A program made the translations under genes and the position numbers. A model generated the notes under the pieces. That model searched no databases. It was not told where the DNA came from and saw only the letters and a list, made by a program, of their open reading frames with translations. Positions 4,777-29,427 of a DNA stretch of 44,674 bases are shown piece by piece. Origin of the DNA: a virus. The stretch's first letter is position 1; every line of letters begins with the position of its first letter. The stretch covers positions 1-44,674 of the IMG/VR virus record IMGVR_UViG_3300017788_000045; one strand, 5' to 3'.

Positions 4777-4795
4777 TTAACAAAGGAAGAAAATT

Positions 4796-5296
4796 ATGAC
4801 ATGGGCTAGAGTAGTAGATAACGAAATTATAGAAATATTTGAAGAAGATCCCGCCAAATATTTTCATCCAGATGTATTACACGAATGGGTAGATATCCCC
4901 AACGAAGGTGTTCATATCGGCTGGAAATTTAAAAACGGAAGATGGATCAGCGGAGGACAATGGTGGGAAGAGCACTATCAAGAACATCCTCTTCCACCTG
5001 CCGGGCCGCCAACAGCGCAAATTATGGTCGATCATAAAGAGACTAGAACCCACGATCAGTTCGTATTCACCGGAGCGGTCGGCGGTGTAGGAGAAATTGA
5101 CAAATGGACCATTGACGGAAAAGTCTATACGACAGAAGTCGTCGAACTAGAATTTGCCAAAGGCGAAACATTACACACTCTCCAGGTAGAATTAACAGTA
5201 AAAGGTCCAGGAGGTTCGGATACCAAAAAACTCGAAGGTGATCAAGCAGTGATCATAGCTCCGGTATTCGTGCCATTATTTCAATCTAGGTCCTAA
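4796..5296 (+). CDS. Putative tail-fibre accessory/assembly protein with Ig-like C-terminus
   Basis: 166 residues. The N-terminal 60 or so ('MTWARVVDNEIIEIF', then 'GWKFKNGRWI') resemble the short N-terminal domain of phage fibre-assembly and tip proteins. The C-terminal 90 residues ('FTGAVGGVGEIDKWTIDGKV' ... 'LQVELTVKGPGG') look like a PKD/Ig-like beta-sandwich. AAGGAAG precedes the ATG. It follows the two adhesins with a 19-nt gap, which fits a fibre chaperone or a fibre cap. Its last 21 bases overlap the end of the convergent oxygenase gene. The call rests on motif resemblance and position only. Confidence 0.5.
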   Translation: MTWARVVDNEIIEIFEEDPAKYFHPDVLHEWVDIPNEGVHIGWKFKNGRWISGGQWWEEHYQEHPLPPAGPPTAQIMVDHKETRTHDQFVFTGAVGGVGEIDKWTIDGKVYTTEVVELEFAKGETLHTLQVELTVKGPGGSDTKKLEGDQAVIIAPVFVPLFQSRS

Positions 5297-7575: not shown

Positions 7576-8361
7576 ATGCCTTTACTTGCTGACTTTCCTG
7601 TAATTTTTGTACATTATCCAACCGGAGCAGGCGGATGGTTTTTTTCCAGCTTATTATACAATTGTTTTGATACCTCAGATCCTCTGCTATTCGATCAAGT
7701 GGGGTCTGGACATGCCAATAGGTCCATATCTTATACCACTAATTTTTATAAAGATTTCCTCCAAGAAGATCGAGGACTTGATATAATCTATGACAGAAAT
7801 TATGAAAATTTTACCAAATCACAGAGAGTAGATTATATAAGAAATAAACTGTTAGTGGCTCCCGATGCCGATATCAGCACACATGTGATTTCAATACATT
7901 GCAAGAATATTAACGTTTTTTTAGAAGCACTACCTTTGCTGAAAGTCGTCCAGATCAATATAACAGACGGCGATCTTCTAAGATGCACATATAATTATTT
8001 GTATAAAGTTTTATCTCAGACTCCGCTAAACTTTCATACGTTTTGTGAAGAACGTGGAATAACTGGCAGTGAACTAGAAATCGCTCGACAAAAAATACAA
8101 AACCTCAACAAAGAAAACATAGAATACTTTCGTTGGGTAATTCCTTTTATCCAAGAAACCAATCAAACGATTCCTAATGATGCAAAATTCGTTTCTAGGA
8201 TATATTCAATGATGTATGAAGATTATATGACGATAGATCCAGGAATCATGATGAAAGAAGTTTTAGATTTTGTTCAATGCGAATATGATCGAGATTTATT
8301 CGAAACAGCATGCGGCCACATTCTATCGTATAGGATGACCCAACCAATATTTCCAGAATGA
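7576..8361 (+). CDS. Sulfotransferase-like P-loop protein
   Basis: 261 residues from the ATG at 7576. The N-terminus 'PVIFVHYPTGAGGWFFSSLL' has the hydrophobic strand, Gly-rich loop and helix expected of a nucleotide/PAPS-binding loop at the start of sulfotransferase-like folds. A mid-protein strand 'HVISIHCKN' could hold the second site, but I see no clear 3'-phosphate-binding signature. It overlaps the next gene by 4 bases (ATGA) and opens the long plus-strand operon. If a true sulfotransferase, it would move sulfate from PAPS to a hydroxyl or amine; the assignment is fold-level only. Confidence 0.45.
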   Translation: MPLLADFPVIFVHYPTGAGGWFFSSLLYNCFDTSDPLLFDQVGSGHANRSISYTTNFYKDFLQEDRGLDIIYDRNYENFTKSQRVDYIRNKLLVAPDADISTHVISIHCKNINVFLEALPLLKVVQINITDGDLLRCTYNYLYKVLSQTPLNFHTFCEERGITGSELEIARQKIQNLNKENIEYFRWVIPFIQETNQTIPNDAKFVSRIYSMMYEDYMTIDPGIMMKEVLDFVQCEYDRDLFETACGHILSYRMTQPIFPE

Positions 8362-9494
8362 ACGTACTAATTTTAACTCCTGATCGCGTAGGATCAACTT
8401 TCTTACAGAGATTTATCACCATAATCATGCAGCAATATGATTACGGAAAACCTGTAATCAATCTACATGAGCTCACTAACGGAATTCAAAAAAATTACAG
8501 CGATCATTTTAAAATCGAGATGTTAGGTAAACCTCCTAAAGATGAATGGGGCTACCATCAGAAATTAGATGAAATAGTAGATCTATTGAAATCTGCAGAT
8601 CATTTTAAAACCAGCAGATTGGCTCTATACCATCTTAATAATCGTAAAGATTCGCTAGAAGATCAGTTGAGTTTTTACAAGTATCTCAATGATAATTTTT
8701 ACATTATTTCGGCTAAAAGGAAAAATCTTTTCGAACATGGGTTAAGTTGGTGCATAGTCAACGAATCGAAAAATCTAAATATTTTTAGCCACGAAGAAAA
8801 AATTAAAATATTTCAAGACATTTACAAAAGAGGAATATATGTAGACACAGAGGTAATGATCAATTATCTTGACAGATATCTGGAATATCTTGATTGGGTT
8901 AGGAATCATTTCAATGTCAGCACCTATTTTCATTATGAAAAAGACATGAATGATATTGAGAATTTCGTTCAACGACTCAATATATTCCCGCCTGATCAAG
9001 CTCCTGGGGGATGGGAAAGGATGTTCGGCGTTTCATGGAACGATTGGAATCGATGCCATTATTTGATCAGCGACATGAGCGGATTTTCTAAAAAAGTCGA
9101 AATGATCACTAACGAACCGAATAGCCCTCTTTTAGAAAATTTTACCGAAATAGATGAGTCAGCTATATTAAATAACCAGACTCCGTTGCCCGCTTTGTTA
9201 AAAAGAAATAGTTTAAGCGTTGATAATCAAAAATTTTTGCAAGAAAATATTAAAAAATATTCTGATATTTATTATCAAATTACTGATCTAGAAAGCGCAA
9301 AAGTTTTAACATCTGCCATGCCAATTAAATTGCAGACATTCGCAGAAAAGGCCATGCTAATCAAAAATTTTCCAGAATGCTTAGATGCATATAACAGTTG
9401 GTGCGACAAAAATCAAAAGGAAGGAAGATTAGACAAAGAAGGAATTTTGCAAGACGCGCTCAACGAACTGAAATTTTGGTATGGAAAGATCTAG
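8358..9494 (+). CDS. Sulfotransferase-like protein
   Basis: 378 residues. The N-terminus 'MNVLILTPDRVGSTFLQRFI' matches the 5'-phosphosulfate-binding loop pattern of sulfotransferases (strand, then R-x-G-S/T-T, then helix). A second element, 'FYIISAKRKNLFEHGLSW', resembles the 3'-phosphate-binding RxxNL...S motif. Both halves of a PAPS site are thus plausible in the right order. Related proteins occur in T4-like marine phages, usually unannotated. The gene overlaps both neighbours (4 and 14 bases). Acceptor unknown. Confidence 0.6.
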   Translation: MNVLILTPDRVGSTFLQRFITIIMQQYDYGKPVINLHELTNGIQKNYSDHFKIEMLGKPPKDEWGYHQKLDEIVDLLKSADHFKTSRLALYHLNNRKDSLEDQLSFYKYLNDNFYIISAKRKNLFEHGLSWCIVNESKNLNIFSHEEKIKIFQDIYKRGIYVDTEVMINYLDRYLEYLDWVRNHFNVSTYFHYEKDMNDIENFVQRLNIFPPDQAPGGWERMFGVSWNDWNRCHYLISDMSGFSKKVEMITNEPNSPLLENFTEIDESAILNNQTPLPALLKRNSLSVDNQKFLQENIKKYSDIYYQITDLESAKVLTSAMPIKLQTFAEKAMLIKNFPECLDAYNSWCDKNQKEGRLDKEGILQDALNELKFWYGKI

Positions 9495-11354: not shown

Positions 11355-12965
11355 ATGAATATAAAAAAATTAACTATCATAGGCGGGGGATCGTCTGGGT
11401 GGATGGCAGCTTCTACTATCGTAAAATTATGTCCGCATATTGATGTACATATCGTGGAATCTAAAAATTATCCAACTATAGGAGTGGGAGAATCAACACT
11501 AGGACATATAAACAGATGGTTATCTATGCTCGATATCACCGACGACATGTGGATGAAGGATTGTAAAGCCACATATAAAAATACTATTAGATTTACGAAT
11601 TTTAGACAAAATGACGGCTCATATTTTGAATATCCCTTTGGCGATTGGGATCCGGCATACAAACACAATGGCATAAACAGTTGGTCTGAGATCGCTGCGG
11701 CTTTTCCGGAAGAATTTCCTCCTCAAACGTTTGCTGAATTTATGAATACCAGTAATACTTTCTTAGCCAAGCACAATAGACAGACCAAAAACGAAGATGG
11801 TATATTAAGACATTTTAATTTCCAGTTTGACACAGCATATCACATGGATGCTACAGCATTCGGACAATGGTTAAAACACAAGTATGCATTGCCTCGAGGA
11901 GTTAATCTTATACAAAACGATATCGTATCATGCGAAAAAGATGACGACGGCAATATCGTTAAAATAATCTGCGAAGATGGCCTGGTACTAGAATCCGACC
12001 TTTGGATAGATTGCACTGGATTTAAATCTTTGTTATTAGAACAGTGGATGGGACAGAAATTTATAGATTTCAAAAATCAATTAGCCAATGACAGCGCCTG
12101 GGCCGGTCCTATACAGATAGAAGATCGAATCAACGAAATACAAAATACCACGAATTGCACGGCACTAGGAAATGGATGGGTATGGAATACTCCTTTATGG
12201 TCTAGGATCGGGACCGGTTATGTTTTTTCTAGCAAGTTTACTGATAAAGATTCTGCTCTAAAAGAATTTAAAACGCATCTAAAAACAAAATACGGAGAAG
12301 AACGAGTTGAAAATACTGATTTTCGACACATAGATATTAAACACGGATATCGAGAAAAATGTTGGGTAAAGAACGTTGTAGGAATCGGTCTGTCTTACGG
12401 CTTTATAGAACCATTAGAATCCACCGGATTGCTGACCACTCATGAAAATTTGATTAGATTGTCAGATATATTAAATCGTCGAAACGGATATGTATCATAT
12501 TCTGAAAAACAAGGATTTAATTTTACGGTAGAAAACATCTTGTTAGGGTTTAGAGATTTTGTATCCATGCATTATGCGTTTTCTACGAGAACAGATACTC
12601 CCTATTGGAGATGGTGTACACAGGAAAATGATTATCGACCAGAAATCTTTGACAGGCATGTTTTAAAAGAGGGAGGATGGGTTACTATTTTAAGTAATTT
12701 AACTTTAACAAATACGTATCCAGATAATATGCCTGGAGCTACGTTTATTACAGCCGGTCTAGGAATTAAATCGGTATCTACAAAAGAAATAACTGAAACT
12801 ATTTTTAAATTGTACAAGATGGATATAAATCTCTTAGAAGAAGAAAAACAAAAATACTACGAATACAGAAATAATGTAGAAACATATATTAAAACATTAC
12901 CGACCCACTATCAATTTTTGCTGGATAATATCTACGGCGAAGATGAATATGCAAAAAAAATATAA
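11355..12965 (+). CDS. Flavin-dependent halogenase (tryptophan-halogenase family)
   Basis: 536 residues, normal family length. FAD-binding GGGSSGW at 10-16; 'IGVGEST' at 42-48; 'CKATYKNTIRF', where K75 aligns with the catalytic lysine that forms the halogenating chloramine (K79 in PrnA/RebH); the family WxWxIP motif is present as WVWNTP at 265-270, with Thr for Ile; and 'GLSYGFIEPLESTG' near 335-348. These enzymes use FADH2, O2 and halide to halogenate electron-rich substrates. A viral member, VirX1 of cyanophage Syn10, has been reported to iodinate diverse substrates. No flavin reductase is visible here, so reduced flavin would come from the host. AGGA precedes the ATG; the gene overlaps the next by 23 bases. 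Confidence 0.9.
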   Translation: MNIKKLTIIGGGSSGWMAASTIVKLCPHIDVHIVESKNYPTIGVGESTLGHINRWLSMLDITDDMWMKDCKATYKNTIRFTNFRQNDGSYFEYPFGDWDPAYKHNGINSWSEIAAAFPEEFPPQTFAEFMNTSNTFLAKHNRQTKNEDGILRHFNFQFDTAYHMDATAFGQWLKHKYALPRGVNLIQNDIVSCEKDDDGNIVKIICEDGLVLESDLWIDCTGFKSLLLEQWMGQKFIDFKNQLANDSAWAGPIQIEDRINEIQNTTNCTALGNGWVWNTPLWSRIGTGYVFSSKFTDKDSALKEFKTHLKTKYGEERVENTDFRHIDIKHGYREKCWVKNVVGIGLSYGFIEPLESTGLLTTHENLIRLSDILNRRNGYVSYSEKQGFNFTVENILLGFRDFVSMHYAFSTRTDTPYWRWCTQENDYRPEIFDRHVLKEGGWVTILSNLTLTNTYPDNMPGATFITAGLGIKSVSTKEITETIFKLYKMDINLLEEEKQKYYEYRNNVETYIKTLPTHYQFLLDNIYGEDEYAKKI

Positions 12966-15456: not shown

Positions 15457-17154
15457 ATGTGGCTTTTAGGTATTAATGTAGGACACAATGGGGCTACAGC
15501 TCTGTTTCATAATGACGAATTGATTTTTTATATCGAGGAAGATAGATTATCGAGATTGAAATACGATGGAAATCCCTTTGCTGGCATGCTACTCGCCTAC
15601 GATTATACAGACAAAATAGACTATCTAATTTTATGTGCTACCAGAAATGCCTTTGGCATGGTACCATGGACCGGTGAGGATGCTTATACTTGTTTCATTA
15701 GAAAAATGCAGCCCGGCCATAATGTAGAAACGGTTAAACTAGGCGATGACCATCATTTAACTCATGCTTATACTGCTTTTTATAACAGTGGATTTAAAGA
15801 AGCGGCCGCATTGATTATCGACGGCGCAGGAAGCGGCTGTAGAGTGAGTCAAGAACTTATGCATCAGACTTGGGAAGTAGAATCTATTTGGAAGATGGCA
15901 TACCCTGCTGCACATCAGTGTATGTACAAAAACTATGGTACTAATCTAGTAGATAGTTTTTCTATACAAGAAGAGGAGTTTCCTATAGAAATTTCCGACA
16001 TGCACGGCATAACCAAAAGTTATGAAGCAGTTACGCAGTTTCTAGGTTTCCATGCTATCGAAGCAGGTAAGACTATGGGGTTAGCACCGTACGGTAAACC
16101 TAATCCGAATATCAAAATAAACGATGGTAGATTCAGCAACAGATCTTTTATCAAACCAAACTATCCTGCCGGAAGTTATATAAGATGCGATCTCGATCCG
16201 GAACTTTCTAAACTTAATGGGGATATTTCTTGGCACGACGATCCTGATCTAGTAGGAGACTTCAGAAAAGACATCGCATATGCAGTTCAAAAATCATCTG
16301 AAAAGCGAGTTTTTGATCTAATTAGTAAAACGATCGAAATAACAGGAATGAAAAAAATAGTCATGGCCGGAGGCTACGGACTGAACTGTGTGGCCAATTA
16401 TGAATATCTTAAAGAATTTCCAGATGTAGATTTTTATAACGAACCGATCGCTCACGACGGAGGAAACGTTATTGGAGCATGCCTTTATATCTATAGATTA
16501 GTTTCAGAAACATCTAATATCAGACCGCTGACCTCGTTGTATCTAGGTCCTGATAGAAGCAAAGATTATGATTCTATGGATACAGAGGGATTTGAGATAA
16601 AAGAATCAAATGCGGCAGAAGTAGCAAGGCTGATTGCAGACGGTAATATCGTATGCTTGTTCCAAGGTAGGTCTGAAGCAGGACCTCGAGCATTGGGCAA
16701 TAGAAGCATTTTGTACGATCCGTCGGTAATCAATGGCAAAGACATCGTTAATATAGTCAAGAAAAGAGAATGGTTCAGGCCGTTTGCCGGATCCTGTTTA
16801 GCAGAAAAAGCCAACGAATGGTTCGACCTACGAACTAAAAAAGAAACTCCATTTATGATGTATGCTGTCGATGTGCTGCCAGAAAAAAGAGATATCATTC
16901 CGGCGATCACTCATGTAGATGGAACCTGCAGAGTGCAAACAGTTGCAAGAGATCAAAACCCTCATTATTACGATCTCATCGATGAATTTGATAAGATCAA
17001 AGGAATCCCTATCCTGTTTAACACCAGTTTTAATCTAGCAGGTGATCCTTTGGTAGAAAAAATCAGTGAGGCAACCAATACACTCAAGAAATCAGATCTC
17101 AAGTATCTTTGGTTGCCTGAAGTAGGTAAATTACTGATTAAGAAAGAGGATTAA
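15457..17154 (+). CDS. Carbamoyltransferase, NodU/CmcH/TobZ family
   Basis: 565 residues, full family length. The ASKHA-type N-terminus 'GINVGHNGATALFHNDELIF' is followed by the metal-binding HHLTHA at 99-104, 'VMAGGYGLNCVANYEYL', 'GRSEAGPRALGNRSIL' around 405-416 and the C-terminal YrdC-like part with 'FRPFAGSCL'. Enzymes of this family carbamoylate a hydroxyl on sugars (NodU on Nod factors, TobZ on tobramycin) or other scaffolds (CmcH on cephems) from carbamoyl phosphate and ATP. AAGGAAA precedes the ATG. Its stop overlaps the stop of the convergent methyltransferase in a TTAA palindrome. NodU-type genes are known in T4-like cyanophages. Confidence 0.9.
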   Translation: MWLLGINVGHNGATALFHNDELIFYIEEDRLSRLKYDGNPFAGMLLAYDYTDKIDYLILCATRNAFGMVPWTGEDAYTCFIRKMQPGHNVETVKLGDDHHLTHAYTAFYNSGFKEAAALIIDGAGSGCRVSQELMHQTWEVESIWKMAYPAAHQCMYKNYGTNLVDSFSIQEEEFPIEISDMHGITKSYEAVTQFLGFHAIEAGKTMGLAPYGKPNPNIKINDGRFSNRSFIKPNYPAGSYIRCDLDPELSKLNGDISWHDDPDLVGDFRKDIAYAVQKSSEKRVFDLISKTIEITGMKKIVMAGGYGLNCVANYEYLKEFPDVDFYNEPIAHDGGNVIGACLYIYRLVSETSNIRPLTSLYLGPDRSKDYDSMDTEGFEIKESNAAEVARLIADGNIVCLFQGRSEAGPRALGNRSILYDPSVINGKDIVNIVKKREWFRPFAGSCLAEKANEWFDLRTKKETPFMMYAVDVLPEKRDIIPAITHVDGTCRVQTVARDQNPHYYDLIDEFDKIKGIPILFNTSFNLAGDPLVEKISEATNTLKKSDLKYLWLPEVGKLLIKKED

Positions 17155-17678
17155 CCTCTATACCACTCGCAGTAGAGCCTTACTACTTTACCATCAGATT
17201 CTATTTGGAAATTCTCCATACGGAAAAGATACAGATCAGCGAACCGTTTTAATTCTGCTTCGGACCAAGGATAGAAGTCGATCTGCTTACAGATGTCGTT
17301 TCCGTGATCTTGTCTTCCGGGATTGACCCTCCAGTAAATTCTGGATTTAGGTTTCAGCCAATCGCACACCGAAGTGATCTGTTTATGGATATCCAGTTCT
17401 GTGCCGAAATTGATACTACCGAGACAGGCAGCGACATCAAATCTACGATCTGCGACATAATCTTCGATGGTAGTTTTAATATCAGCCTCGTCAAACGCAG
17501 GATCTATTCCTATGACATTCTTTACCAAGCCCTTGAAAGGATTCTTTCCGCACCCAACGTCCAATAACCATTCGTCATCTTTGATTTTAGATGCTATAGT
17601 TTTTGGAGAACTGAATGCATAAACTCCAGCGGGGTTCCAATGATTTTTAAAATAATCATTAAGAAAATCTTGATTCAT
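17151..17678 (-). CDS. SAM-dependent methyltransferase, class I
   Basis: 175 residues. 'WLLDVGCGKNPFKG' is SAM motif I, 'VIGIDP' ends strand 2 with an acidic residue, 'FDVAACLGSINF' is motif post-II/III, and 'KSRIYWRVNPGRQD' lies after. The same block series appears in the gene just upstream on this strand, so they are paralogues. TAAGGAG precedes the ATG. Small size and lack of a substrate domain leave the target (sugar, small molecule or protein) open. Confidence 0.75.
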   Translation of the reverse strand: MNQDFLNDYFKNHWNPAGVYAFSSPKTIASKIKDDEWLLDVGCGKNPFKGLVKNVIGIDPAFDEADIKTTIEDYVADRRFDVAACLGSINFGTELDIHKQITSVCDWLKPKSRIYWRVNPGRQDHGNDICKQIDFYPWSEAELKRFADLYLFRMENFQIESDGKVVRLYCEWYRG

Positions 17679-17721: not shown

Positions 17722-18450
17722 TTATTTTTCATAAACGAAAAATAAACGATCGTTGTTGTCTTTTTTAAATGTCAGCAATTTCAACCCTAATCGTTTAGCG
17801 ATGTTGTTAGCATGTTCGAAATTCCACGGAAATATATCTATCCACGGTCCAGTTTTCCATTGTATTCCCGGATTGGCTCGAAGATAAATTTTGCCGCCGT
17901 CGGTTAACAGGTCTGTACACTTTTTAAGATTATTTTGAATATCGAGTATCTCATTGAAATTTATAGATCCTAAAGCCAGTATATGATCGTACTTTTCTTC
18001 TACAACATAATCTGCTATACTGACCATGTAATCTGCGCAGTTATTAAACGGATCGATCCCTACTAGATTTTCGATCCTATTTTTAAACTGATTATAACCG
18101 CAGCCTACATCTAGCACTGCTCGGGGATTCTGTTTATTGATTTCGTCGACTAGACTCCATCCCGAATACATGTATACGTCAGTGTTAGGGCGCCAGATTT
18201 CGGAAAAAAATCTAGCCATATAAAGATTATCCAATCTATCAGTGATTTCTTTCACCGACCCCGTAAATTCTATATGTAAATCTAACGGTTGTTCAACAGC
18301 AGCTTTGAATTTTTCGTATCTCGCCGGCGTCCACGGGAGGAAATCGATCCTGGTATCCGGACTTAATGTTTCAAGAACTGCGGAATATTTAGGTAAATTA
18401 AAGGCGGACTTTAAATTTTTTGTAATTAGTTGAAAAATTTTCGTATTCAT
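17722..18450 (-). CDS. SAM-dependent methyltransferase, paralogue with N-terminal extension
   Basis: 242 residues. The C-terminal 150 hold 'VLDVGCGYNQFKNRI', 'LVGIDPFNNCADY', 'YDHILALGSINFNEI' and 'GKIYLRANPG', matching the neighbouring methyltransferase block for block. The first 85 or so residues are an extra region ('TRIDFLPWTPARYEKFKAAV') without a motif I recognise. No Shine-Dalgarno is visible. It is transcribed toward its shorter paralogue across a 43-bp gap, forming a two-gene minus-strand unit between two plus-strand operons. Partner-type or sequential methylation is conceivable. Confidence 0.75.
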   Translation of the reverse strand: MNTKIFQLITKNLKSAFNLPKYSAVLETLSPDTRIDFLPWTPARYEKFKAAVEQPLDLHIEFTGSVKEITDRLDNLYMARFFSEIWRPNTDVYMYSGWSLVDEINKQNPRAVLDVGCGYNQFKNRIENLVGIDPFNNCADYMVSIADYVVEEKYDHILALGSINFNEILDIQNNLKKCTDLLTDGGKIYLRANPGIQWKTGPWIDIFPWNFEHANNIAKRLGLKLLTFKKDNNDRLFFVYEK

Positions 18451-18537: not shown

Positions 18538-19119
18538 ATGCTACCAAATAAAATATTCATGATAGGAGCTCCGGGCAGTAGGTGGAGCGGAATCGCGCAA
18601 AATATCGAGGACAATATACCTGGTTTTAACGTCAGCGATAGAACTCAACAACGTCAATATTCACATCACGCATTTTCTGGACATCTAGGAATTTACTTCG
18701 GAACAGGATGGGAAAATGACACTAGCCTAGATCAAGAAAATCTCGATCTCGGATTTGAGAATGTCAACGGAACTAGGATATTGAAAAGCCATGAGTGGGC
18801 CTATCAATTAGACGAAATCAAACAACGCTACCCCGATGATTGGATCATGCTGGTTTATAGACCGGAAATGAGTTGTTATAGTTGGTGGCACGAAGCTGGC
18901 GGATTTACTATCAAGTATCCAGATTATCGTCCCTATTATCAAGACAGCGTAAAGATGCTTAACGAAATTATGAGGATGAATCAATCAATATTTAAATTCT
19001 CACAAAAACATAATCTCGTGTGGCAACACATATCCGCTGATTGGATCGAAGAGAATTTCGGTAAACGCATAGAGCCATCCGTGAAACTCCCAGACACGTT
19101 AGTTACTCTGTTGAAATAA
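18538..19119 (+). CDS. Sulfotransferase-like P-loop protein (GAPGSRWSG type)
   Basis: 193 residues. 'IFMIGAPGSRWSGIAQNI' is a strand-loop-helix resembling the PAPS-binding loop, and 'DWIMLVYRPEMSCYSWWHEA' could be the second motif with Arg and Ser in the 3'-phosphate position. I recall proteins with this GAPGSRWSG start from marine T4-like phages, usually unassigned. Its stop codon shares a base with the TctA start (TAATG), so it is co-translated with the transporter. Enzymatic activity is inference. Confidence 0.5.
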   Translation: MLPNKIFMIGAPGSRWSGIAQNIEDNIPGFNVSDRTQQRQYSHHAFSGHLGIYFGTGWENDTSLDQENLDLGFENVNGTRILKSHEWAYQLDEIKQRYPDDWIMLVYRPEMSCYSWWHEAGGFTIKYPDYRPYYQDSVKMLNEIMRMNQSIFKFSQKHNLVWQHISADWIEENFGKRIEPSVKLPDTLVTLLK

Positions 19120-20555
19120 TGGAATATATAATCTGGTTAATGTTAGGAACTGTATATGGTACTATAGTGGGAGTCATTCCTGTCGCAGGAGCCACGATCG
19201 GCCTATTGGCTGTTTTTGGAATGATCGATAGCTTTCTAGGAAATCCCTATCTGGGTGTTGTTTTCATGACTGCTTTTCTTGGAGCGGTTAGCAGCAGCGA
19301 TAGCTTCACCAGCATACTAACTGGAATACCGGGTTCAGGAAGCACCGCGGCATCGATTATTGACGGATACCCAATGGCAAGGAACGGTCAGGGTGCCAGG
19401 GCCGTAGGTATCGCATTGATGGATTCTACTGTTAATGGTTTGTTTTGGGGGTTGTTAGCATTTGGCCTCATGCCATTTTACAGCAAATTAATTCTATTTT
19501 TTGGTATACCAGAATTTGCAGCTTTAATGTTATTAAGTCTTGCATGTGTAGGATTTATCACTGTTAAAAATCCCATGTTGAGCATCGCAAGTGTAGCTTT
19601 GGGTTTATTTCTCGGAATGATAGGTCAGGATCCCGGAACCGGCGCATATAGATTTACTTTTGGTTGGGATTATCTCGCTGCCGGTATACAAATCGTTCCG
19701 ATCATTGCAGGCCTGTTTGCTGTTCCAGAGATCATAGACTGCCTACGGGGAAAAATGAAAAAACCACCCCCTATGGTCGACTATTGGTCACAGTTAAAAC
19801 AAGGCTTTAGCGATTGCTGGCAACATCGACGTGATATGATGAGAGGCGGTGTGATAGGATTTTTTACAGGGATACTTCCCGGTATAGGCGGTAGTGCAGG
19901 GGATATGATGGCCTACGGTGCCACTGTGGCAAAGCACCCAAAAGAACAGTTTGGTAACGGAAATGTAAAAGGCCTTATTGGCTGCGAAGGGGCCAACAAT
20001 GCACAAAAGCCTGCAAGTTTAATTCCGACAATATTGTTTGGAATTCCTGGAGCACCATTCGCTGCGATAATGATGGCGGTATGTATAATGTTAGGGCTTG
20101 AATTAGGAACTCCGTCTCTGCTAGAAGATCAAAAATTTATGTGGGCTATTGCTGGTGGTTTTTTAATCAGTACTGTAATAAGTTTTATAATTTGTATATT
20201 CATTGCCCGATGGATAGTAAAGATTTTAGAAATTCCCACATGGATCTATGCGGCTGTAATTTCAACTGTGGTCGTTTGGAGCAGTTTTCAATATTCCGGA
20301 ACTATCAATGATTTATATATTTTGGTTGTTTGTGGAATTATTGGTTTTTTTGCCAAACAAATCGGATTAAGCAGACCGGCGATTTTATTAGCTTATGTGG
20401 TTGCAGAAAAATTTGAAAACTATACACAACAAAGTTTTACTCTATATACCTGGAGTGAAATCTTATCGAGGCCGCTGACACTGGCCTTGTTGATTGTTTC
20501 TATATTAATAGTGATCAACAGCGTAAGAAAATTTAATGGTATAAACTTTAATTAG
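19119..20555 (+). CDS. tctA: TctA-family permease, tripartite tricarboxylate transporter
   Basis: 478 residues, close to the usual length of about 500 for TctA. The protein is almost wholly hydrophobic, with roughly ten to twelve membrane spans. Hallmarks: 'GTVYGTIVGVIPVAGATIG' near the N-terminus, 'SILTGIPGSGSTAASIIDGY', the internal repeat 'GVIGFFTGILPGIGGSAGDM' near 245-264, and 'PTILFGIPGAPFAAIMM'. TctA is the large inner-membrane subunit that moves carboxylates such as citrate, driven by ion gradients, with TctB and the periplasmic binder TctC. A TctC-like gene follows after 8 bases; no TctB is present. It looks intact, not decayed. Substrate cannot be read from sequence. Confidence 0.9.
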   Translation: MEYIIWLMLGTVYGTIVGVIPVAGATIGLLAVFGMIDSFLGNPYLGVVFMTAFLGAVSSSDSFTSILTGIPGSGSTAASIIDGYPMARNGQGARAVGIALMDSTVNGLFWGLLAFGLMPFYSKLILFFGIPEFAALMLLSLACVGFITVKNPMLSIASVALGLFLGMIGQDPGTGAYRFTFGWDYLAAGIQIVPIIAGLFAVPEIIDCLRGKMKKPPPMVDYWSQLKQGFSDCWQHRRDMMRGGVIGFFTGILPGIGGSAGDMMAYGATVAKHPKEQFGNGNVKGLIGCEGANNAQKPASLIPTILFGIPGAPFAAIMMAVCIMLGLELGTPSLLEDQKFMWAIAGGFLISTVISFIICIFIARWIVKILEIPTWIYAAVISTVVVWSSFQYSGTINDLYILVVCGIIGFFAKQIGLSRPAILLAYVVAEKFENYTQQSFTLYTWSEILSRPLTLALLIVSILIVINSVRKFNGINFN

Positions 20556-20563
20556 GAGATGTC

Positions 20564-21619
20564 ATGAAAAAAATATTAATAGCATTTTTGCTATCTTTAA
20601 ATTTACCAGCACTTGCTGAATTTAGAATGATAGTACCACAAGCAGCGGGCAACGGAACTGCTGTTTGGGCAGATATCATAGCCAGACATTTAGAAAAACA
20701 GTTAGGCGAAAAAATAGTTATACAACATATTCCGGGAGCCAAAGATATCTCCGGTTTCAATGAATTTCATAACAAATTAAGATTTGATGAAAAGACAATC
20801 ATGGTCAGTCATGGCGGCAACGGGATAGGCTATCTGGTGGATCGCGTTGATTATGATTATAAACACTATGATTCCATCGGAATGATGAATCTCAATATCG
20901 TGGTCGGCAAAAAGAAAGGCGCAGAAATGCAAGGACAGAAAGCCAGGATAGCAGGTAGCAGCGGACAAGAAACAGACGGAATGGCTATTGCGCTATTACT
21001 CTGCGGCAATTTACCGACTATGCAGACCTATTTAGATTGTTGGAATCAAAATGCTATTTGGGTGAACGGAGTTAAAGGCAGCGAACGAAGACTGGGGTTT
21101 ATGAGAGGCGAATTTAACGTTGCTCGCGAATCGGTCGTAGCATGGTTTAAACACTACACAAGCCCAGAAAGCAATGCAGAAATTTGGTTCCATCACGGCG
21201 TCTATGATCTTAATACCAGGCGGCAAAATGAAGATCCTAATTTTCCTCGAGGATACCGATTTGAAACACAGTTTAAAAACGTGCATGGAGTAGATCCAAA
21301 AGGTCCCCTATACGATGCCTATACATTAAGTAGGAATTTCAGAGATGTTCTACAAAAGGCACTATGGGTTAACAAAGGCAATCCTAACACAGAAAGACTT
21401 CGAGCCGCTCTAACTAAAATGATCACGGATCCCGAAGCAGCCGCTGCACTGGAAAAAGACACCGGCAAATATGAATGGATTATAGGCGATGCTGGAAACC
21501 AAGTAGTTGATCGTATACGCCGTAATATAACCGAACAAAAACTTAAAGACATGGTTTGGTGGCACGAAAACGCCTATAAATTCCCCAGCGTATACAAGCC
21601 GGAGTTGATAATCAAGTAA
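20564..21619 (+). CDS. tctC: TctC/Bug-family periplasmic solute-binding protein
   Basis: 351 residues. A signal peptide 'MKKILIAFLLSLNLPALA' precedes a predicted cleavage after ALA at residue 18, so the product should be exported to the periplasm. The mature start 'FRMIVPQAAGNGTAVWADII' followed by 'LGEKIVIQHIPGA' follows the TctC/Bug pattern (P-x-A-x-G-x-x-D, then VVxNxPGA). The usual Asp after the Gly-rich loop is replaced, so ligand preference may differ. AGGAG precedes the ATG. Pairing with TctA supports function as a binding-protein-dependent carboxylate importer placed in the host envelope during infection. Confidence 0.8.
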   Translation: MKKILIAFLLSLNLPALAEFRMIVPQAAGNGTAVWADIIARHLEKQLGEKIVIQHIPGAKDISGFNEFHNKLRFDEKTIMVSHGGNGIGYLVDRVDYDYKHYDSIGMMNLNIVVGKKKGAEMQGQKARIAGSSGQETDGMAIALLLCGNLPTMQTYLDCWNQNAIWVNGVKGSERRLGFMRGEFNVARESVVAWFKHYTSPESNAEIWFHHGVYDLNTRRQNEDPNFPRGYRFETQFKNVHGVDPKGPLYDAYTLSRNFRDVLQKALWVNKGNPNTERLRAALTKMITDPEAAAALEKDTGKYEWIIGDAGNQVVDRIRRNITEQKLKDMVWWHENAYKFPSVYKPELIIK

Positions 21620-21641
21620 TCGATCGCAAATAAGTATATGC

Positions 21642-22250
21642 ATGATCATCGATTATAACAAAGGAATACACCCAGATAGCGGCAAAACTTACACAGTCCA
21701 TAAAGATCTCATCACTGTACCTTTTTGGACGGAAGAATTTTGCCGCGGTCTGATCGATTTAGCAGAATTTCACGATCATAGATTCCACTCTCATGAACAA
21801 AAAGATGAGGATTTAGGCTATAACGCTCTGTATTTCTCTCACATTAGCCAATATCTATTCGAAGATTATGTCCAGCACTACGTTCGAGATCTAATTCCCG
21901 TAATCAAAGAAGTTTGGCCCTACGCGAGAATTCCGGGATGGCAAAGTCCGTTTATATTAAAGTACCATAAGAACGGAAAGCGGCATCTAAATCCACATCA
22001 TGATTTAAGTGCGATTAGCTGGAATATCAAATTAAACGATGGGTATCAGGGAGCTTGTTTAGAATTCCCTAGGCAAGAATTCAACAATAAAGAAACTCCC
22101 GTAGGGCATCTGCTCATGTGGCCGTCGACTATCACGCATTATCATCAGGTACCCCCTATAGAGCAGGGAACAAAATATTCAGTCACTGGCTGGACATGGC
22201 CATCGGGGGCAGCCGAATGGCACGGAATTAAAAATATTTTTACGGATTAA
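21642..22250 (+). CDS. 2OG-Fe(II) oxygenase, procollagen-lysyl/prolyl-hydroxylase-like
   Basis: 202 residues. 'NPHHDLSAISWNIKLNDGYQ' gives H119 and D121, then 'GACLEFPRQ', 'GHLLMWPSTITHYHQVPPI' with H168 and K178 in 'GTKYSVTGWTW'. This is the lysyl/prolyl-hydroxylase-type layout with Lys as probable 2OG ligand. It lies 22 bases after the TctC gene, in the same apparent operon as the transporter. Substrate unknown. Confidence 0.8.
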   Translation: MIIDYNKGIHPDSGKTYTVHKDLITVPFWTEEFCRGLIDLAEFHDHRFHSHEQKDEDLGYNALYFSHISQYLFEDYVQHYVRDLIPVIKEVWPYARIPGWQSPFILKYHKNGKRHLNPHHDLSAISWNIKLNDGYQGACLEFPRQEFNNKETPVGHLLMWPSTITHYHQVPPIEQGTKYSVTGWTWPSGAAEWHGIKNIFTD

Positions 22251-22253
22251 AAA

Positions 22254-22904
22254 ATGTACAATCATATATTTCCTATCACATATATCCAGGCCAACATATC
22301 TTTAGAATTAGATATGGCTGAAATTGAAAACATATTAAAAGATTTAGAAAAAGATTACAAAGATCCAAGATTAATTGAAAATAAAGCTGGAAACAAAATG
22401 ACTTTTGATAAGCTGTTGTTGACCGACAGATATAAAAACAGTCAACTAACAAAAATCATAACGAAATATCTAAACCAATACAGATATGATATACTGGGCG
22501 TCGAAGATAATGATCTTGAAATAACCGAAAGCTGGGTAAATTTTTGTCAACCGGGCGCCGGACATCATATGCATAATCATTTTAATTCTGTGTTAAGCGG
22601 AACATTTTATTTAGACATAGAAGAAGAGCGCGGTGGAGAAGTTGTTATCGTAGATAACAGGTCCAAGGGAACGATTCATCACCGAGGAATTCCAAATTAT
22701 CATAACGTTACAGAAATTTTTGTTTCTCCTAAAAAATTTGATCTTTTAATTTTTCCTTCATATATGTATCATTGGGTTACTCCTAACCTGGGAGAAAAAA
22801 ATAGGAAAAGTCTAGCCTTTAATAGTTTTTATAATAAACCTATCAGTTCGGATCCCATAGGTTATAGCTGCACTGGGTTAAATTTTACTTTGAACCAGCC
22901 ATGA
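22254..22904 (+). CDS. 2OG-Fe(II) oxygenase-like protein
   Basis: 216 residues, TIGR02466-like. 'SWVNFCQPGAGHHMHNHFNS' holds H107 and H109, then 'LSGTFYLDI', 'FDLLIFPSYMYHWVTPN' with H173, and R184 in 'KNRKSLAFNSF'. It begins 3 bases after the preceding stop and overlaps the luciferase-like gene by 4 bases (ATGA). The run of His before the HxH is a local peculiarity. Confidence 0.8.
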   Translation: MYNHIFPITYIQANISLELDMAEIENILKDLEKDYKDPRLIENKAGNKMTFDKLLLTDRYKNSQLTKIITKYLNQYRYDILGVEDNDLEITESWVNFCQPGAGHHMHNHFNSVLSGTFYLDIEEERGGEVVIVDNRSKGTIHHRGIPNYHNVTEIFVSPKKFDLLIFPSYMYHWVTPNLGEKNRKSLAFNSFYNKPISSDPIGYSCTGLNFTLNQP

Positions 22905-23902
22905 AATTATCTATATTAGATCAGTCTATCGTCAATGATTCGATCCCCCAAAGTCAAGCTATTATCGAATCGATCGAAATGGCTAAGAATTGCGAAAGAT
23001 TAGGCTATTATAGATACTGGGTATCTGAACATCACAATAGTCCTACAGTCGCCGGAACTGCTCCGGAAATCCTAGTTTCGGCTATTGCAGCGTCTACAAA
23101 AAAAATAAGAGTAGGTAGCGCAGGAGTATTGCTGCATTTTTATAGCCCTTATAAAGTAGCAGAGCAATTTTCGGTGATAGAATCCTTCGCTCCAGATAGG
23201 ATAGATCTGGGGGTAGGCCGAGCTCCCGGTGCAGACGGATTATCAGCAAGAGCTATCAACGAAAATTTCGATCCGTCTAGCGATTATAAAATGAAAATTA
23301 GAGAACTACTGCATTGGTTAGATGGAATACCGCTGCCAGAAGACCATATACACGGCCACGGAATGATCACTGCGAATCCTTTAGGATATTCGAGCCCAGA
23401 ACTATGGTTGTTAGGCAGCAGCGTAGAAAGTGCGACCATCGCCGCAGAGCTAGGATTACCTTATTCATTCGCTCATTTTTTCAATGACGGCGCAGGAATG
23501 CCGGAAGCATTAGACATATATAGAAATGAATATATCTCTAGCAAAAGATTTCCTACTCCGAAATTGAACGTCTGTATTTCCTGCATAGCAGCTGACAGCT
23601 ATGAAAAAGCTCTATGGTTGAATTCTACGAGAAATCATTGGAGAACACAGTTCGAAAACGGCATGCGTACAGCACTGAAGCACCCCGATGAGCTAATAAA
23701 TTACAATTATAGCGACGAAGAAAAAGAAAAAATCGATGAATGGAATTCTAATGCGATTATCGGAACCGTAGATCAGATCGAATTTAGATTAAAAGAGTTA
23801 TCTCTAAAATTCGACATAACAGAATTCGTATTAAATACTTGGACATATGATCTCAAAGATCGATTCGATTCTTATTTTTTGATGTCAAGATTGATAACAT
23901 GA
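22901..23902 (+). CDS. Luciferase-like (LLM) flavin-dependent monooxygenase
   Basis: 333 residues, normal length for the class. The N-terminus 'MKLSILDQSIVNDSIPQSQA' and 'YWVSEHHNSPTVAGTAPEIL' are characteristic of the LLM subgroup near YhbW/MsnO8. 'KIRVGSAGVLLHFYSPYKVA' and 'RIDLGVGRAPGADG' complete the TIM-barrel FMN site. These enzymes use reduced FMN and O2 to oxidise organic substrates; true light emission is limited to LuxA/LuxB and is not implied. It overlaps an oxygenase on each side by 4 bases, so three oxidative enzymes are co-translated. No dedicated flavin reductase is nearby. Confidence 0.85.
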   Translation: MKLSILDQSIVNDSIPQSQAIIESIEMAKNCERLGYYRYWVSEHHNSPTVAGTAPEILVSAIAASTKKIRVGSAGVLLHFYSPYKVAEQFSVIESFAPDRIDLGVGRAPGADGLSARAINENFDPSSDYKMKIRELLHWLDGIPLPEDHIHGHGMITANPLGYSSPELWLLGSSVESATIAAELGLPYSFAHFFNDGAGMPEALDIYRNEYISSKRFPTPKLNVCISCIAADSYEKALWLNSTRNHWRTQFENGMRTALKHPDELINYNYSDEEKEKIDEWNSNAIIGTVDQIEFRLKELSLKFDITEFVLNTWTYDLKDRFDSYFLMSRLIT

Positions 23903-24483
23903 AAACAACGACAACAAATTATTGCATGATCTGCGATGACTTTCTTGATGAAGAACAGCAGAATCTTATAATATCTAGAATAGATAATCCTAATTTTATA
24001 TGGACAGTTGCCTGCGACCACACTGTGGGGTATGACTTATCAAAAGAATTCGAAAATGACACGAGATTCAAAGAAACTCCTCAGCTGGTTTCTTTAGTTA
24101 TGACTGACAATAATCCTAGCTGTGTATTTCATCAAGATTTTACCAATGTACTAAAAACTTTTCTAGTTAAAAATAATTTTCGAGCAGAATTTATACACAG
24201 AATCAAGGTGAATAATCAAGAATTAGATCTATCATTCACAGACGATATGTTCAATACTCCGCATGTAGACTGGAATTTTCCTCACAATGTGATGTTATAT
24301 TATGCCATCGATTCTGATGGGGACACTGCGTTATTTGATCGCATAGACGGACATTTGACAATCGTCGAACGCATCACTCCTAGAAAAGGTAGAGCAGTCC
24401 TCTTTGATGGTCAAACCTTACATGCCGGAAGACCGCCGTCGACTAGTACTAGGAGGTTAATAATAAATTATAATTTTCGATGA
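23899..24483 (+). CDS. 2OG-Fe(II) oxygenase
   Basis: 194 residues. 'MFNTPHVDWNFPHNVMLYYA' gives H122 and D124, followed by 'DSDGDTALFDR', 'KGRAVLFDGQTLHAGRPP' with H175 and R185 or R186 for 2OG. The triad is complete. The N-terminal 'MICDDFLDEEQQNLIISRI' is the usual opening of this family. It ends the 18538-24483 operon and its stop abuts the end of the convergent HAD-like gene without any gap. Substrate unknown. Confidence 0.8.
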   Translation: MKTTTTNYCMICDDFLDEEQQNLIISRIDNPNFIWTVACDHTVGYDLSKEFENDTRFKETPQLVSLVMTDNNPSCVFHQDFTNVLKTFLVKNNFRAEFIHRIKVNNQELDLSFTDDMFNTPHVDWNFPHNVMLYYAIDSDGDTALFDRIDGHLTIVERITPRKGRAVLFDGQTLHAGRPPSTSTRRLIINYNFR

Positions 24484-25171: not shown

Positions 25172-27280
25172 ATGTCGACAACACCTACATTTAATTTTTA
25201 TCGGGTTTTGCCTAGGGATGCCGCCTATCTAGATAGGAGATCCGGCAACAAAGGTGAAATTTTTTACGATTTCGATAATCAAACTTTACGTATCTTTGAC
25301 GGAACTCGGCAAGGCGGATTTTCCTTTATAACTGAAAACAATATAAGACAAGAACTAGTTGTAGCTGACATAGCTAAGGTAATCTTTGACTTTACCGTAG
25401 TTGCCCCGCAGATTGGCAACTCTGGAAACAAGTATCAGGTAGACGGAGAATATTGGCCGGAATTGACGATGGTCGTTGGATATACCTATGTATTCGACCA
25501 GTCAGATTTAACTAACGTTTTTTTTCCTAATCCTAACAATAGCACAGTTAATCCTCATCCCGTAAACTTTTCTGCTGATAACGCTAATGGAGCATTAGGC
25601 GGAGGTACTGCATACGTCGATAATGTTGTGTACCGGTTAAACGGAAAATCGGTTAGCAGATCTAGGTATAATGGCGTGGAATTTAATACTTCTACATCTA
25701 GGCAAGTATGGATAACTGTGACCAACGACACTCCTTCGACTTTATATTACCACTGTTATTATCATGTCAATATGGGGTCTTCGATTTCTATTTCAAATCC
25801 TGGAACAGGATCTAGTGGCATCGGAGACTTACAAGCCGGCACGGGTATTTCGATCGCTATCAGCGATGGTACTGCTACTATATCGAATTCGGGGGTGATA
25901 GATATCGAAGCAGGGTCGGGGATTTCGTTGGTTGTAAACCAAGGAGTTTACACTATAAATTCCACAGCATCGGCAGGAGATTTAGAGTTTTCTGGAAACA
26001 CTATAACATCCTCTGATAGCAGTGCTATTACTTTTATACCTGCTGTGAATTTTGAATCAGATGTCGTTATCGGTAATGAATTGGTATTTCCGGATGGCAG
26101 CCGACAGATCACAGCGACCCTGCAAGGACCAGAAGGACCAGAAGGGCCTCCCGGTGCCGGAGGTGCAGGAACCGGGGATGTTAGTTCGGTGCTAGGCGGT
26201 TATGTCAATAATGCCATAGTGAGATACAGCGGAACCAGCGGCAACAATATCAAAAACAGCACCGCGTCAATCAATGATGCCGGAGTTATCACTGCTTCTG
26301 GATTTTCTGGCTCTGGAACAACATTAACTAATCTAGATGCTGACAATCTAAGTTCAGGAACCCTACCAAATGCTCGTTTCCCAGCCACATTGCCTGCATT
26401 AAGTGGTGCGAATCTTACTTCTCTCAATGCCACGAATCTCGGATCAGGTACGGTTCCAGTCTTAAGATTAGGTACAGCAGGAACCAGAGACGCTACAACA
26501 TTCTTAAGAGGCGACAATACCTGGGCGGTGGTCGCAGGAGGCGGTGGAGCCTCTGATAGTTTTAGCACCATTGCTGTAGCTGGCCAATCAAGCGTGGTAG
26601 CAGATTCCAGCACAGATACATTGACCTTGGTAGCAGGCACAGGTATTACCATCACCACCAATGCGGGCACAGATACGATAACCATCACCAACAGTGGTAA
26701 TGCGTCTGATAGTTTTACTACCATAGCCGTCGCCGGTCAGAGCAATGTCGTGGCAGATTCCGCTACGGACACCCTGACACTGGCAGCAGGTACGGGCATC
26801 TCTATAACCACAAACGACAGCACAGACACTGTGACTATCACCAGCACCGTCAGCGCAGGAGTTACAGCATTTACTGGCCTGAGCGATTCTGCAGGAACTA
26901 CGGTAGATACGATCTACATGCCTGCCATAACCATGCTATCAGTGACCAATCAAGGTGCCAGTGCCTACAGATTCGATCAATACGGAACCACAGACAATCC
27001 TACCGTCTATGCCCTAAACGGAGCAACCATAGCATTCAAACTGTCAGTGTCCGGACATCCTTTCTTGATACAGACTGGAGCGGGCGCGAACTACAGTACC
27101 GGGCTGATTCATGTCTCTACCACTGGCGTGGTTTCTACAGGTTCGTCGGCCCAAGGCCAGACTTCTGGTACATTGTACTGGAAGATCCCTGACAGTATTT
27201 CCGGTGGATATCGTTATCAGTGTAGTGCTCATGTTGGTATGGTAGGTAGTATTAGTATAAAGAATTTTGCTTCGATCTAA
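25172..27280 (+). CDS. Virion fibre-like protein with collagen-like stretch and cupredoxin-like domains
   Basis: 702 residues. In order: an N-terminal attachment-like part 'RVLPRDAAYLDRRSGNKGEI'; a first cupredoxin-like domain (about 65-210) with H129, C195, H198 and M201 ('HCYYHVNMG'); a collagen-like run 'GPEGPEGPPG' near 319-328; fibre-type 'SSGTLPNARFPATLP' and 'FLRGDNTW'; two 51-residue tandem repeats at 460-561; and a C-terminal second cupredoxin-like domain with H629, C684, H687 and M690 ('CSAHVGMVGSISI'). Such mosaics are typical of tail or head fibres in marine T4-like phages. The copper-site spacing is C-x2-H-x2-M, not the classical C-x2-H-x4-M, so metal binding is uncertain. It ends convergently with a 4-base overlap. 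Confidence 0.75.
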   Translation: MSTTPTFNFYRVLPRDAAYLDRRSGNKGEIFYDFDNQTLRIFDGTRQGGFSFITENNIRQELVVADIAKVIFDFTVVAPQIGNSGNKYQVDGEYWPELTMVVGYTYVFDQSDLTNVFFPNPNNSTVNPHPVNFSADNANGALGGGTAYVDNVVYRLNGKSVSRSRYNGVEFNTSTSRQVWITVTNDTPSTLYYHCYYHVNMGSSISISNPGTGSSGIGDLQAGTGISIAISDGTATISNSGVIDIEAGSGISLVVNQGVYTINSTASAGDLEFSGNTITSSDSSAITFIPAVNFESDVVIGNELVFPDGSRQITATLQGPEGPEGPPGAGGAGTGDVSSVLGGYVNNAIVRYSGTSGNNIKNSTASINDAGVITASGFSGSGTTLTNLDADNLSSGTLPNARFPATLPALSGANLTSLNATNLGSGTVPVLRLGTAGTRDATTFLRGDNTWAVVAGGGGASDSFSTIAVAGQSSVVADSSTDTLTLVAGTGITITTNAGTDTITITNSGNASDSFTTIAVAGQSNVVADSATDTLTLAAGTGISITTNDSTDTVTITSTVSAGVTAFTGLSDSAGTTVDTIYMPAITMLSVTNQGASAYRFDQYGTTDNPTVYALNGATIAFKLSVSGHPFLIQTGAGANYSTGLIHVSTTGVVSTGSSAQGQTSGTLYWKIPDSISGGYRYQCSAHVGMVGSISIKNFASI
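26549..26854 (+). repeat. Two tandem 153-bp coding repeats in the fibre gene
   Basis: Copies 26549-26701 and 26702-26854 encode 51 residues each, opening ASDSFSTIAVAGQS and ASDSFTTIAVAGQS and ending in a TGITITTN/TGISITTN strand. DNA differs at many third positions, so the duplication is old or maintained by selection. Confidence 0.8.
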
Positions 27281-27549: not shown

Positions 27550-27934
27550 TTTCTAACTCCAATATAGTTTCTATTTTAATCTTAATAGTTTGATCATTCA
27601 ATGTATTCTTTAGTCCGCCATGAAGATTTTTCGGTAAGTGATCTAAAGAACTCCATGAGTAGGTTGATGCTACCTCGGTTAAAAATTCCTGTTCTACCAA
27701 GCAAACATAAGTCCCGTATTCAAAACCGTTGTCTTTTGATAGATAAAGCTCAATAGGAACAATTTTTCCTCTCCCGTAATTTTTAAGAAGATCTTCTGCA
27801 TCATCTAAGATAACAGTCTTTCTTGGAAAGGTAGGAACCGTCCAATATTGATTTTCTAAAATCAAAAAGATTCTTCCTGATTTTTTAGAAAGAAATAGTA
27901 AACCGGCACGCTGTTGCATACCTTTAATTATCAT
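27530..27934 (-). CDS. Degenerate Nudix-fold protein
   Basis: 134 residues. 'QQRAGLLFLSKKSGRIFLIL' and 'YWTVPTFPRK' match strands before a Nudix box, and the C-terminal 'YSWSSLDHLPKNLHGGLKNT' matches the end of Nudix proteins I associate with marine T4-like phages. The Nudix box itself (G-x5-E-x7-REVxEExGU) is gone: the segment reads 'TVILDDAEDLLKNYGRG' and has no REVEE-type metal-binding glutamates. Pyrophosphohydrolase activity is therefore unlikely. The gene overlaps gp15 by 4 bases (ATGA). Confidence 0.6.
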   Translation of the reverse strand: MIIKGMQQRAGLLFLSKKSGRIFLILENQYWTVPTFPRKTVILDDAEDLLKNYGRGKIVPIELYLSKDNGFEYGTYVCLVEQEFLTEVASTYSWSSLDHLPKNLHGGLKNTLNDQTIKIKIETILELENAFIAK

Positions 27935-29427
27935 GCTTCGAGATCAAATCTCCAGTATCCTGGTGCATATTCGCCTTCGAATGCCTTGAGCCACTGTCCG
28001 TCTGTCCATCTGTACTTTATCAAGGTTCGAAGATTCTGTATAATAGTATTCCCTGATGCGGCAGACGGATTAAATATCACTTTCCACGATGCCCCATCCC
28101 ACTCTATAATACTATTAGCAGGTATAAATGGATCTGTACCGTTTAGATTCTTCCAGGCGTCTGGACCATCATACGGATCCCGGCTGCTACCGTCCGCAGG
28201 ATCTTGCCCATATTTTATTAAACCGCCACGATTAATACTAGGATTAACGTCATCTAACATTAGATATCTAACTCCTAGCGTTCTTCCATCGGGTCTAGAT
28301 AACGGGTTGAACTTATAAGGATCTACGATAGCATCAACGGTACCTTTGCTAGGCATCCCAGTAATCGAACTGGCTATCAGTGTATTTTGTGGTATAGTGT
28401 CTTGATCGAAACTTGCTACTATTATTGTAGGATCAACTGGGTTAACTGCAAACGTACCTGACATTTCATTTCCGGATGATTGTGTAAAGATAATTCTACT
28501 AGTTGCAGTATAACCTCCCAACAGTTCTAATATCTGATACCAATTTAATTTTCCGCCCACTTTGATATCTTTTTCTGGAATCTTCATCGCCTTTATAGTG
28601 GCCGGTGGATCGATTATAGACACATCGTAGTCATTAGACTGGCCGTTTTGACTTTTAAATAGCAGCACTCTAAATTTTTCAGAACCCCATACTGCTGTAC
28701 CGACCTGCTGATTAAAAATCAAACTATCGAGATCTACTATATTTCCTTCTTCAGAAAAAATGTTAGCTACTATGGATTTTACGATTCCTAATTTTTTAAC
28801 TTTAGCAGGAGGACTGATGTATATGGGGATTTCAAAATCCATGCTAAGGATGTCAATCTCTGATTCGGTCCCCACGGGAATAGATCTATTTGTAAAACCT
28901 ATTTGTTTTAGATCTACTACGGTTAAACTAGTCCAATCTAGGTAATTATCTGTGGTCTGTATTTCTAGGCTAGGATGGAACAACACTGCTATCTGTTCAA
29001 AAAATTGCAATTTCTGATCTACATTCGAAGTCCATATATCAGCTTTCATGGTCATTTTATATGGAGTAGGTAACAATCTTTCTACAGTATAGCTGCCTCC
29101 CTGATAGTTTTGATATTCAACTTCGCCGGTTTCTTCGTCTTGAGTGTAAGCTCGTTGTCTTACATTCACTTTGCTAACGAAGCTCGGATCAGATATTCGA
29201 CTCGTATCTAATTCTAATCCTGTAATATAGCAGGCGATACGAGGCACCGATGGCAATTTGTTTTCTGAGTTTTCTCTTATGAGAGTAGCTACTTGTCTGC
29301 TCATATCCCCATAAGTTACTGGTGCGGTTTTTAATTCTCCGTCGCCGGCCTGATATTTGAATCCTATGAAAATACGCATAAATTGAGTTACATATCTTCG
29401 TATTTGACCGTCGTAAAAATGTTCCAT
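27931..29427 (-). CDS. 15: Tail sheath stabilizer/completion protein, gp15-like
   Basis: 498 residues, against 272 in T4 gp15. The N-terminus 'EHFYDGQIRRYVTQFMRIFI' then 'APVTYGDMSRQV' parallels T4 gp15 (FYN-x-x-FRRY, then VPITY). 'LPSVPRIACYITGLELD' and 'LPTPYKMTMKADIWTSNVDQ' followed by 'FFEQIAVLFHP' match the later conserved blocks. gp15 caps the tail tube and sheath and joins the tail to the neck. The extra C-terminal 230 or so residues, beyond 'FEIPIYISPPAKVKKLG', are not in T4 and end in a WRFDLEA tail. The start overlaps the gp14 stop (TAATG). Confidence 0.7.
   Translation of the reverse strand: MEHFYDGQIRRYVTQFMRIFIGFKYQAGDGELKTAPVTYGDMSRQVATLIRENSENKLPSVPRIACYITGLELDTSRISDPSFVSKVNVRQRAYTQDEETGEVEYQNYQGGSYTVERLLPTPYKMTMKADIWTSNVDQKLQFFEQIAVLFHPSLEIQTTDNYLDWTSLTVVDLKQIGFTNRSIPVGTESEIDILSMDFEIPIYISPPAKVKKLGIVKSIVANIFSEEGNIVDLDSLIFNQQVGTAVWGSEKFRVLLFKSQNGQSNDYDVSIIDPPATIKAMKIPEKDIKVGGKLNWYQILELLGGYTATSRIIFTQSSGNEMSGTFAVNPVDPTIIVASFDQDTIPQNTLIASSITGMPSKGTVDAIVDPYKFNPLSRPDGRTLGVRYLMLDDVNPSINRGGLIKYGQDPADGSSRDPYDGPDAWKNLNGTDPFIPANSIIEWDGASWKVIFNPSAASGNTIIQNLRTLIKYRWTDGQWLKAFEGEYAPGYWRFDLEA

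Follow-up and report, generated by a model that had tools for sequence, protein, structure and literature searches.

The stretch of DNA analysed here (hereafter the window), positions 1-44,674 of the linear IMG/VR record IMGVR_UViG_3300017788_000045, from whose first base all positions are counted, carries the gene of a TctA-type permease followed by that of a divergent TctC-type solute-binding protein. With a probability of roughly 60%, this pair is a reduced uptake system of the tripartite tricarboxylate transporter (TTT) type, belonging to an old, phage-specific clade that lacks TctB and importing a probable carboxylate during infection. In such a system the secreted TctC-like protein would capture a small periplasmic ligand, probably a carboxylate, and pass it on to TctA, whose 12 helices would form the permease that moves it, powered by an ion gradient, into the infected cell. 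The import would benefit the phage, for instance by supplying central metabolism or the 2-oxoglutarate-dependent oxygenases that are often its neighbours. We infer that TctA and TctC act as a joint importer, that this importer either manages without TctB or uses a substitute for it, that its substrate is a carboxylate and that the phage profits from the uptake; the carboxylate uptake function is likely, judging from family membership.

The source is a marine, jumbo-like phage. The window contains a set of T4-type structural and packaging genes (Table 1). Jumbo myoviruses of 286-490 kb, such as PA5oct, Phosso and Atu_ph07, have the nearest counterparts of its terminase (54% identity) and of its unusually long sheath, and the 44.7-kb record therefore probably covers little of a jumbo phage genome. 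The transporter genes belong to a metabolic island of low GC which sits between the tail-fibre and the baseplate genes.

Table 1. Features of the window around the transporter gene pair
Feature	Position	Strand	Remarks
Tryptophan halogenase (PF04820)	11355-12965		In the metabolic island
Nol-like carbamoyltransferase	15457-17154		In the metabolic island
SAM-methyltransferase-like gene	17722-18450	-	Divergent from the operon; member of a viral family
Upstream gene, GAPGS-R/K-W family	18538-19119	+	Its stop codon and the start of tctA share 1 nt; no Pfam match
TctA-type permease	19119-20555	+	Full length (478 aa); some 12 hydrophobic segments; without TctB domain
Divergent TctC-type solute-binding protein	20564-21619	+	351 aa; signal-like N-terminus
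2OG-Fe(II) oxygenase (PF13640)	21642-22250	+	E 2.1e-07; 22 nt after tctC
2OG-Fe(II) oxygenase (PF13759)	22254-22904	+	E 4.6e-21; apparent tct operon
Luciferase-like monooxygenase (PF00296)	22901-23902	+	NCBIfam TIGR03558 above its cut-off; apparent tct operon
2OG-Fe(II) oxygenase (PF13640)	23899-24483	+	E 8.2e-07; last gene of the apparent operon
Baseplate connector	25172-27280		T4-type structural gene
Sheath stabiliser	27931-29427		T4-type structural gene
Tail sheath	33050-36400		T4-type structural gene
Terminase	41339-42925		Structural/packaging hallmark, T4-type set

The permease matches PF01970 over the entire profile (1-423 of 423; E 6.7e-97, 325 bits against a curated cut-off of 28.9) and its hydropathy gives 12 hydrophobic segments; no solved TctA structure was found in the PDB by sequence. 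Both genes are intact and only 8 nt separate tctA from tctC, which bears out the preliminary description of a full-length permease adjacent to a binding protein with a signal peptide.

The binding protein begins with a signal-like stretch ending in LPALA before EF. It gave zero matches to PF03401 even at E 10, and this profile also scores weakly or not at all on some of the nearest cellular homologues. A profile built from the viral TctC relatives reaches BugD, although weakly (E 0.0048), as well as cellular TctCs from canonical and fused operons (E 1e-11 to 1e-33). Moreover, the best 11 structural neighbours of the AlphaFold model (pLDDT 89, pTM 0.87) are all TTT binding proteins (Z 18.3-20.2, the next family having Z 12.5), the closest solved structures being Bug27, BugD, MatC, TphC and Rpa4515, and the predicted fold is the two-lobed one of TTT binding proteins.

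In BugD, Asp20 of the ligand loop (beta1-alpha1) helps to bind the carboxylate (PMC5812351), and this residue aligns with Ala33 of the window protein. The replacement of the Asp, which had been taken earlier as a hint of changed specificity, is real; however, Ser (93), Thr (28) or Ala (13) stand at this position in 134 of the 149 distinct viral TctCs, with Asp in the other 15, and Ala is also present in some cellular TctCs of the fused class. As the change is thus common to viral TctCs and some cellular relatives, the lost Asp is by itself no sign of altered specificity. The ligand class is nevertheless unsure, because the residue that binds carboxylate in BugD is mostly Ser or Thr in the viral proteins. 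The loss of the Asp can also be read as favouring another purpose of the pair, such as membrane exclusion of other phages, sensing or efflux, and phages often repurpose host membrane proteins. Such a role is quite improbable given that both proteins keep the whole family architecture under strong purifying selection and that the binding protein keeps its two-lobed fold.

No TctB (PF07331) was found in the 44.7-kb record and no small membrane protein is present among the neighbours of the pair, so that the absence of TctB beside TctA, on which the preliminary description had insisted, holds within this fragment. Neither was a TctB gene elsewhere in the genome, also considered there, found by PF07331 in 38 whole viral records of up to 343 kb, the window record included, all of which have TctA; most viral records are fragments, terminase and T4-type sheath being seen in only about one third of the 38, with the viral status of the rest being the IMG/VR assignment. 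The controls of this search (E. coli, C. glutamicum and Haloferax) were found above the cut-off. In addition, the ORFs of the fetched viral loci were searched with a profile built from 27 cellular TctBs, and none matched. The TctB that a three-component TTT transporter should have, either free or fused, was thus found neither in the window record nor in the 37 other viral records.

A free or highly divergent TctB might still be encoded in the part of the phage genome outside the record, which is linear and probably covers little of a jumbo genome. This is very improbable, as records of 307, 323 and 343 kb that hold the pair together with a terminase and a T4-type sheath have zero TctB matches, and no TctB-like ORF lies near any viral pair. 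What speaks against a two-part importer is that TctB and the analogous subunit of TRAP transporters, DctQ, are generally taken as needed, DctQ having been shown to be essential (reviewed in PMC5812351).

Two small phage membrane proteins recur beside the viral tct genes. M117, a four-helix protein of about 117 aa with no Pfam name, is often encoded directly beside tctC or tctA (L002:8539-8889, L104:4698-5051, L135:7641-7997), and several copies of M75 (DUF6552, PF20189; about 75 aa) directly follow tctC (L185:5749-5976, L083:9044-9262, L098:1073-1297). Since a small phage membrane protein adjoins the pair in many relatives, two parts may not always suffice, and one of these non-homologous proteins could replace TctB. 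Of the 59 loci retrieved with M117 alone, 35 have tctA or tctC no more than 10 kb away and 13 no more than 30 bp away; for the 75 loci retrieved with M75 alone, these numbers are 46 and 22. The M117 model is confident (pLDDT 91) and has four helices, the same number as TctB, and the closest relative of the window (L002, TctA 77%) encodes M117 5 bp after tctC. Moreover, M117 occurs in 13 and strongly matching M75 in nine of the 38 records, with no overlap, a mutual exclusion that is suggestive only because the records are related. Replacement is unlikely all the same: neither protein is present in the window or in 16 of the 38 records (strong M75 matches counted), including records of 138-167 kb which may be fragments, one or the other lies within 50 bp in only 12 of the 58 TctA lineages, and DUF6552 lies away from TTT genes in all five bacterial loci that were inspected.

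M117 and M75 were also considered as divergent TctBs and rejected, since hhalign against the TctB profile gave 0.2 and 0.6%, respectively (97.8% for the positive control, the C-terminal domain of fused transporters), and the M117 model matched no PDB fold. A broader reading, in which phages have evolved a TTT importer class of their own with TctB lost and often replaced by the unrelated M117 or DUF6552/M75, is tentative and on the whole rather unlikely. If it were true, the purpose of the small subunit would become testable and nutrient import would be a standing function of large T4-like phages.

The pair is widespread among viral relatives. Profile scans of viral contigs confirmed 527 TctA and 471 TctC loci, of which 80 of each were kept. 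The fetched TctAs fall into 60 groups at 85% identity, or 58 after leaving out two groups from metagenome-assembled genomes (MAGs), and TctC is encoded near TctA in 57 of these 58 divergent viral lineages. Of the 60 representatives, 46 have the order tctA-tctC and 13 the order tctC-tctA, and the two genes are a median of 9 nt apart. In a mirror-tree comparison the distances of TctA and TctC correlate at 0.79 (at most 0.21 after shuffling), a correlation that is partly expected from physical linkage alone.

The viral TctA and TctC are co-inherited and under strong purifying selection. The median pairwise dN/dS is 0.07 for TctA (396 pairs) and 0.09 for TctC (349 pairs), values which are approximate because they were obtained by the Nei-Gojobori method with a median dS of about 0.9, and which lie far below 1, the check across viral copies that had been proposed beforehand. 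No internally truncated copies were found among 267 TctA and 274 TctC matches, and the frameshifted relatives that had been suggested as a mark of transient cargo were not seen. Decaying cargo is ruled out by the low dN/dS together with this lack of internal truncation.

In a tree of 100 TctAs, built by a quick method and with SH-aLRT support only, the viral TctAs and four MAG sequences form one clade (SH-aLRT 100) on a stem of 1.9 changes per column, neighbouring cellular TctA-TctB fusion transporters, the nearest sampled cellular relatives of both viral proteins. The loci of these fusions (for example L396-L404) match the viral profiles with E 1e-95 to 1e-110 for TctA and 1e-19 to 1e-33 for TctC, and the C-terminal domain of the fusion proteins is TctB (hhalign 97.8%; PF07331 E 7e-06 in one of them). 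The fused TctAs measure 650-675 aa and their TctCs 365-410 aa, whereas the viral TctA ends at about 478 aa, the point where the TctB domain starts in the fused relatives. From these comparisons a sister relation of the viral clade and the fusions is likely but not proven, because long-branch joins are possible in the tree. The most parsimonious explanation is either a loss of the TctB domain in the viral lineage or a split of this lineage ahead of the fusion, and both fit equally.

The tree, which had been proposed as a means of finding the donor of the viral gene, indicated no recent one, and recent capture from a host is ruled out by the depth and long stem of the single clade that unites the viral TctAs. 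As hundreds of environmental phage sequences share an intact two-part version without the third part, viruses appear to have their own stripped-down TTT lineage. Scanning of genome contigs with the viral TctA gave four MAG loci, two of which (L192 and L194) are in phage-like neighbourhoods, and the same scan with the viral TctC confirmed no relative. The locus L191:5995-9835 on contig BQJD01000039.1 of the Marine bacterium B5-7 MAG, looks cellular, with dsrM/dsrK-like genes recognised by eye, and the contig bears a viral-clade tctA and tctC as well as phage GAPGS and methyltransferase-like genes; it is perhaps a phage-to-bacterium transfer or a misbinned piece.

The phage could also provide only TctA and TctC, with a resident TctABC system of the host giving the small subunit. 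Alphaproteobacteria commonly have tctB (above the cut-off in 25 of 76 genomes), and a Pelagibacter MAG has tctB between a tctC-like gene and tctA in an assembly that also includes a contig with a viral pair. However, in the closest cellular relatives of the viral TctA the TctB is part of the same protein, so that a free TctB partner for this type of TctA is not known, and many host genomes are without any TctB. Completion of the complex by the host is accordingly judged unlikely, and the reduced uptake system of a clade without TctB remains our preferred reading.

The pair lies within an apparent operon of seven genes on the + strand (18538-24483), cotranscription being judged from spacing. 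The first gene product starts with a P-loop-like GAPGS(K/R)W motif and belongs to a conserved family; by eye it is perhaps nucleotide-binding or sulfotransferase-like, and its gene is probably cotranscribed with tctA. The family is not specific to tct: 42 of the 58 TctA lineages have it, and so do 23 of 35 related loci that lack tct. The same applies to the divergently encoded methyltransferase-like family, which is common in these phages (23 of the 35 loci without tct) and for which a weak Methyltransf_23 match was obtained in the sister gene at 17151-17678 and in a relative. A dedicated sulfotransferase-methyltransferase-transporter module was rejected, both families being about as frequent in loci without tct.

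A further family, OX, is enriched beside tct, where it is found in 106 of 134 loci against eight of the 35 related loci without tct, and it lies no more than 1 kb from tct genes in 35 of the 58 lineages (for example L051:7922-8626, L192:3454-4110 and L012:5958-6614). An invariant HxD..H..R motif by itself makes these proteins likely 2OG-Fe(II) oxygenases, and comparisons with Pfam, PHROGs, PDB sequences and, by hhalign, the oxygenases of the window gave no support. The family is absent from the window. With three oxygenases downstream of the pair in the window and OX enriched elsewhere, we hypothesise a link between the transporter and enzymes that use 2-oxoglutarate.

The viral pair resembles the TTT systems (TctABC; PF01970, PF07331 and PF03401) in its TctA permease family, its TctC-type fold and its adjacent genes. 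It differs from them in being without TctB, in having a binding protein below PF03401 detection and in occurring nearly always in phages. TRAP transporters (DctPQM) share binding-protein-dependent secondary transport and a large and a small membrane subunit, but they are unrelated in sequence (PMC5812351) and the viral TctC model fits TTT binding proteins far better.

Viral TTT components had been thought undescribed when the window was first read, yet a tctA domain hit on SUP05 viral contigs was reported in 2014 (eLife, PMC4164917; also in the review PMC6359870), tricarboxylate-transport genes adjoin viral norB/nirK in a marine myovirus (ISME J 2020, PMC8115048), and UniProt has phage proteins named 'PBP2_Bug_TTT'. 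The reports PMC4164917 and PMC8115048 likewise place TTT components on marine phage contigs, but as a domain hit or genomic context only, with no TctC pairing, TctB question or phylogeny. The open-access literature searched gave no account of a viral TctA-TctC clade without TctB, most subscription papers and bioRxiv lying outside the search; it is this clade that appears new here, viral tctA being already known. The role of TctB in TTT transporters is unsettled, and the viral clade offers natural minimal systems in which the small subunit can be tested. The clade also suggests that many large T4-like phages, mostly marine as it appears, repeatedly need to import a particular solute.

Several viral loci carry additional copies or remnants. 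In five related loci (L147-L151:6722-6907) a 61-aa TctA remnant lies upstream of a complete tctC-tctA pair and records either a duplication or a recombination between gene orders. A second, divergent TctA paralogue of about 430 aa is present in some viral records (L031:6408-7703, G018:C1:8608-9840 and G033:C1:59761-60948), in L031 directly after tctA-tctC-M75, and L052 has two divergent TctC copies (4623-5669 and 7968-9053) with one TctA. A further periplasmic binding protein in phage is the family-3 extracellular solute-binding protein (PF00497) encoded at L036:2513-3562, about 570 bp upstream of tctA.
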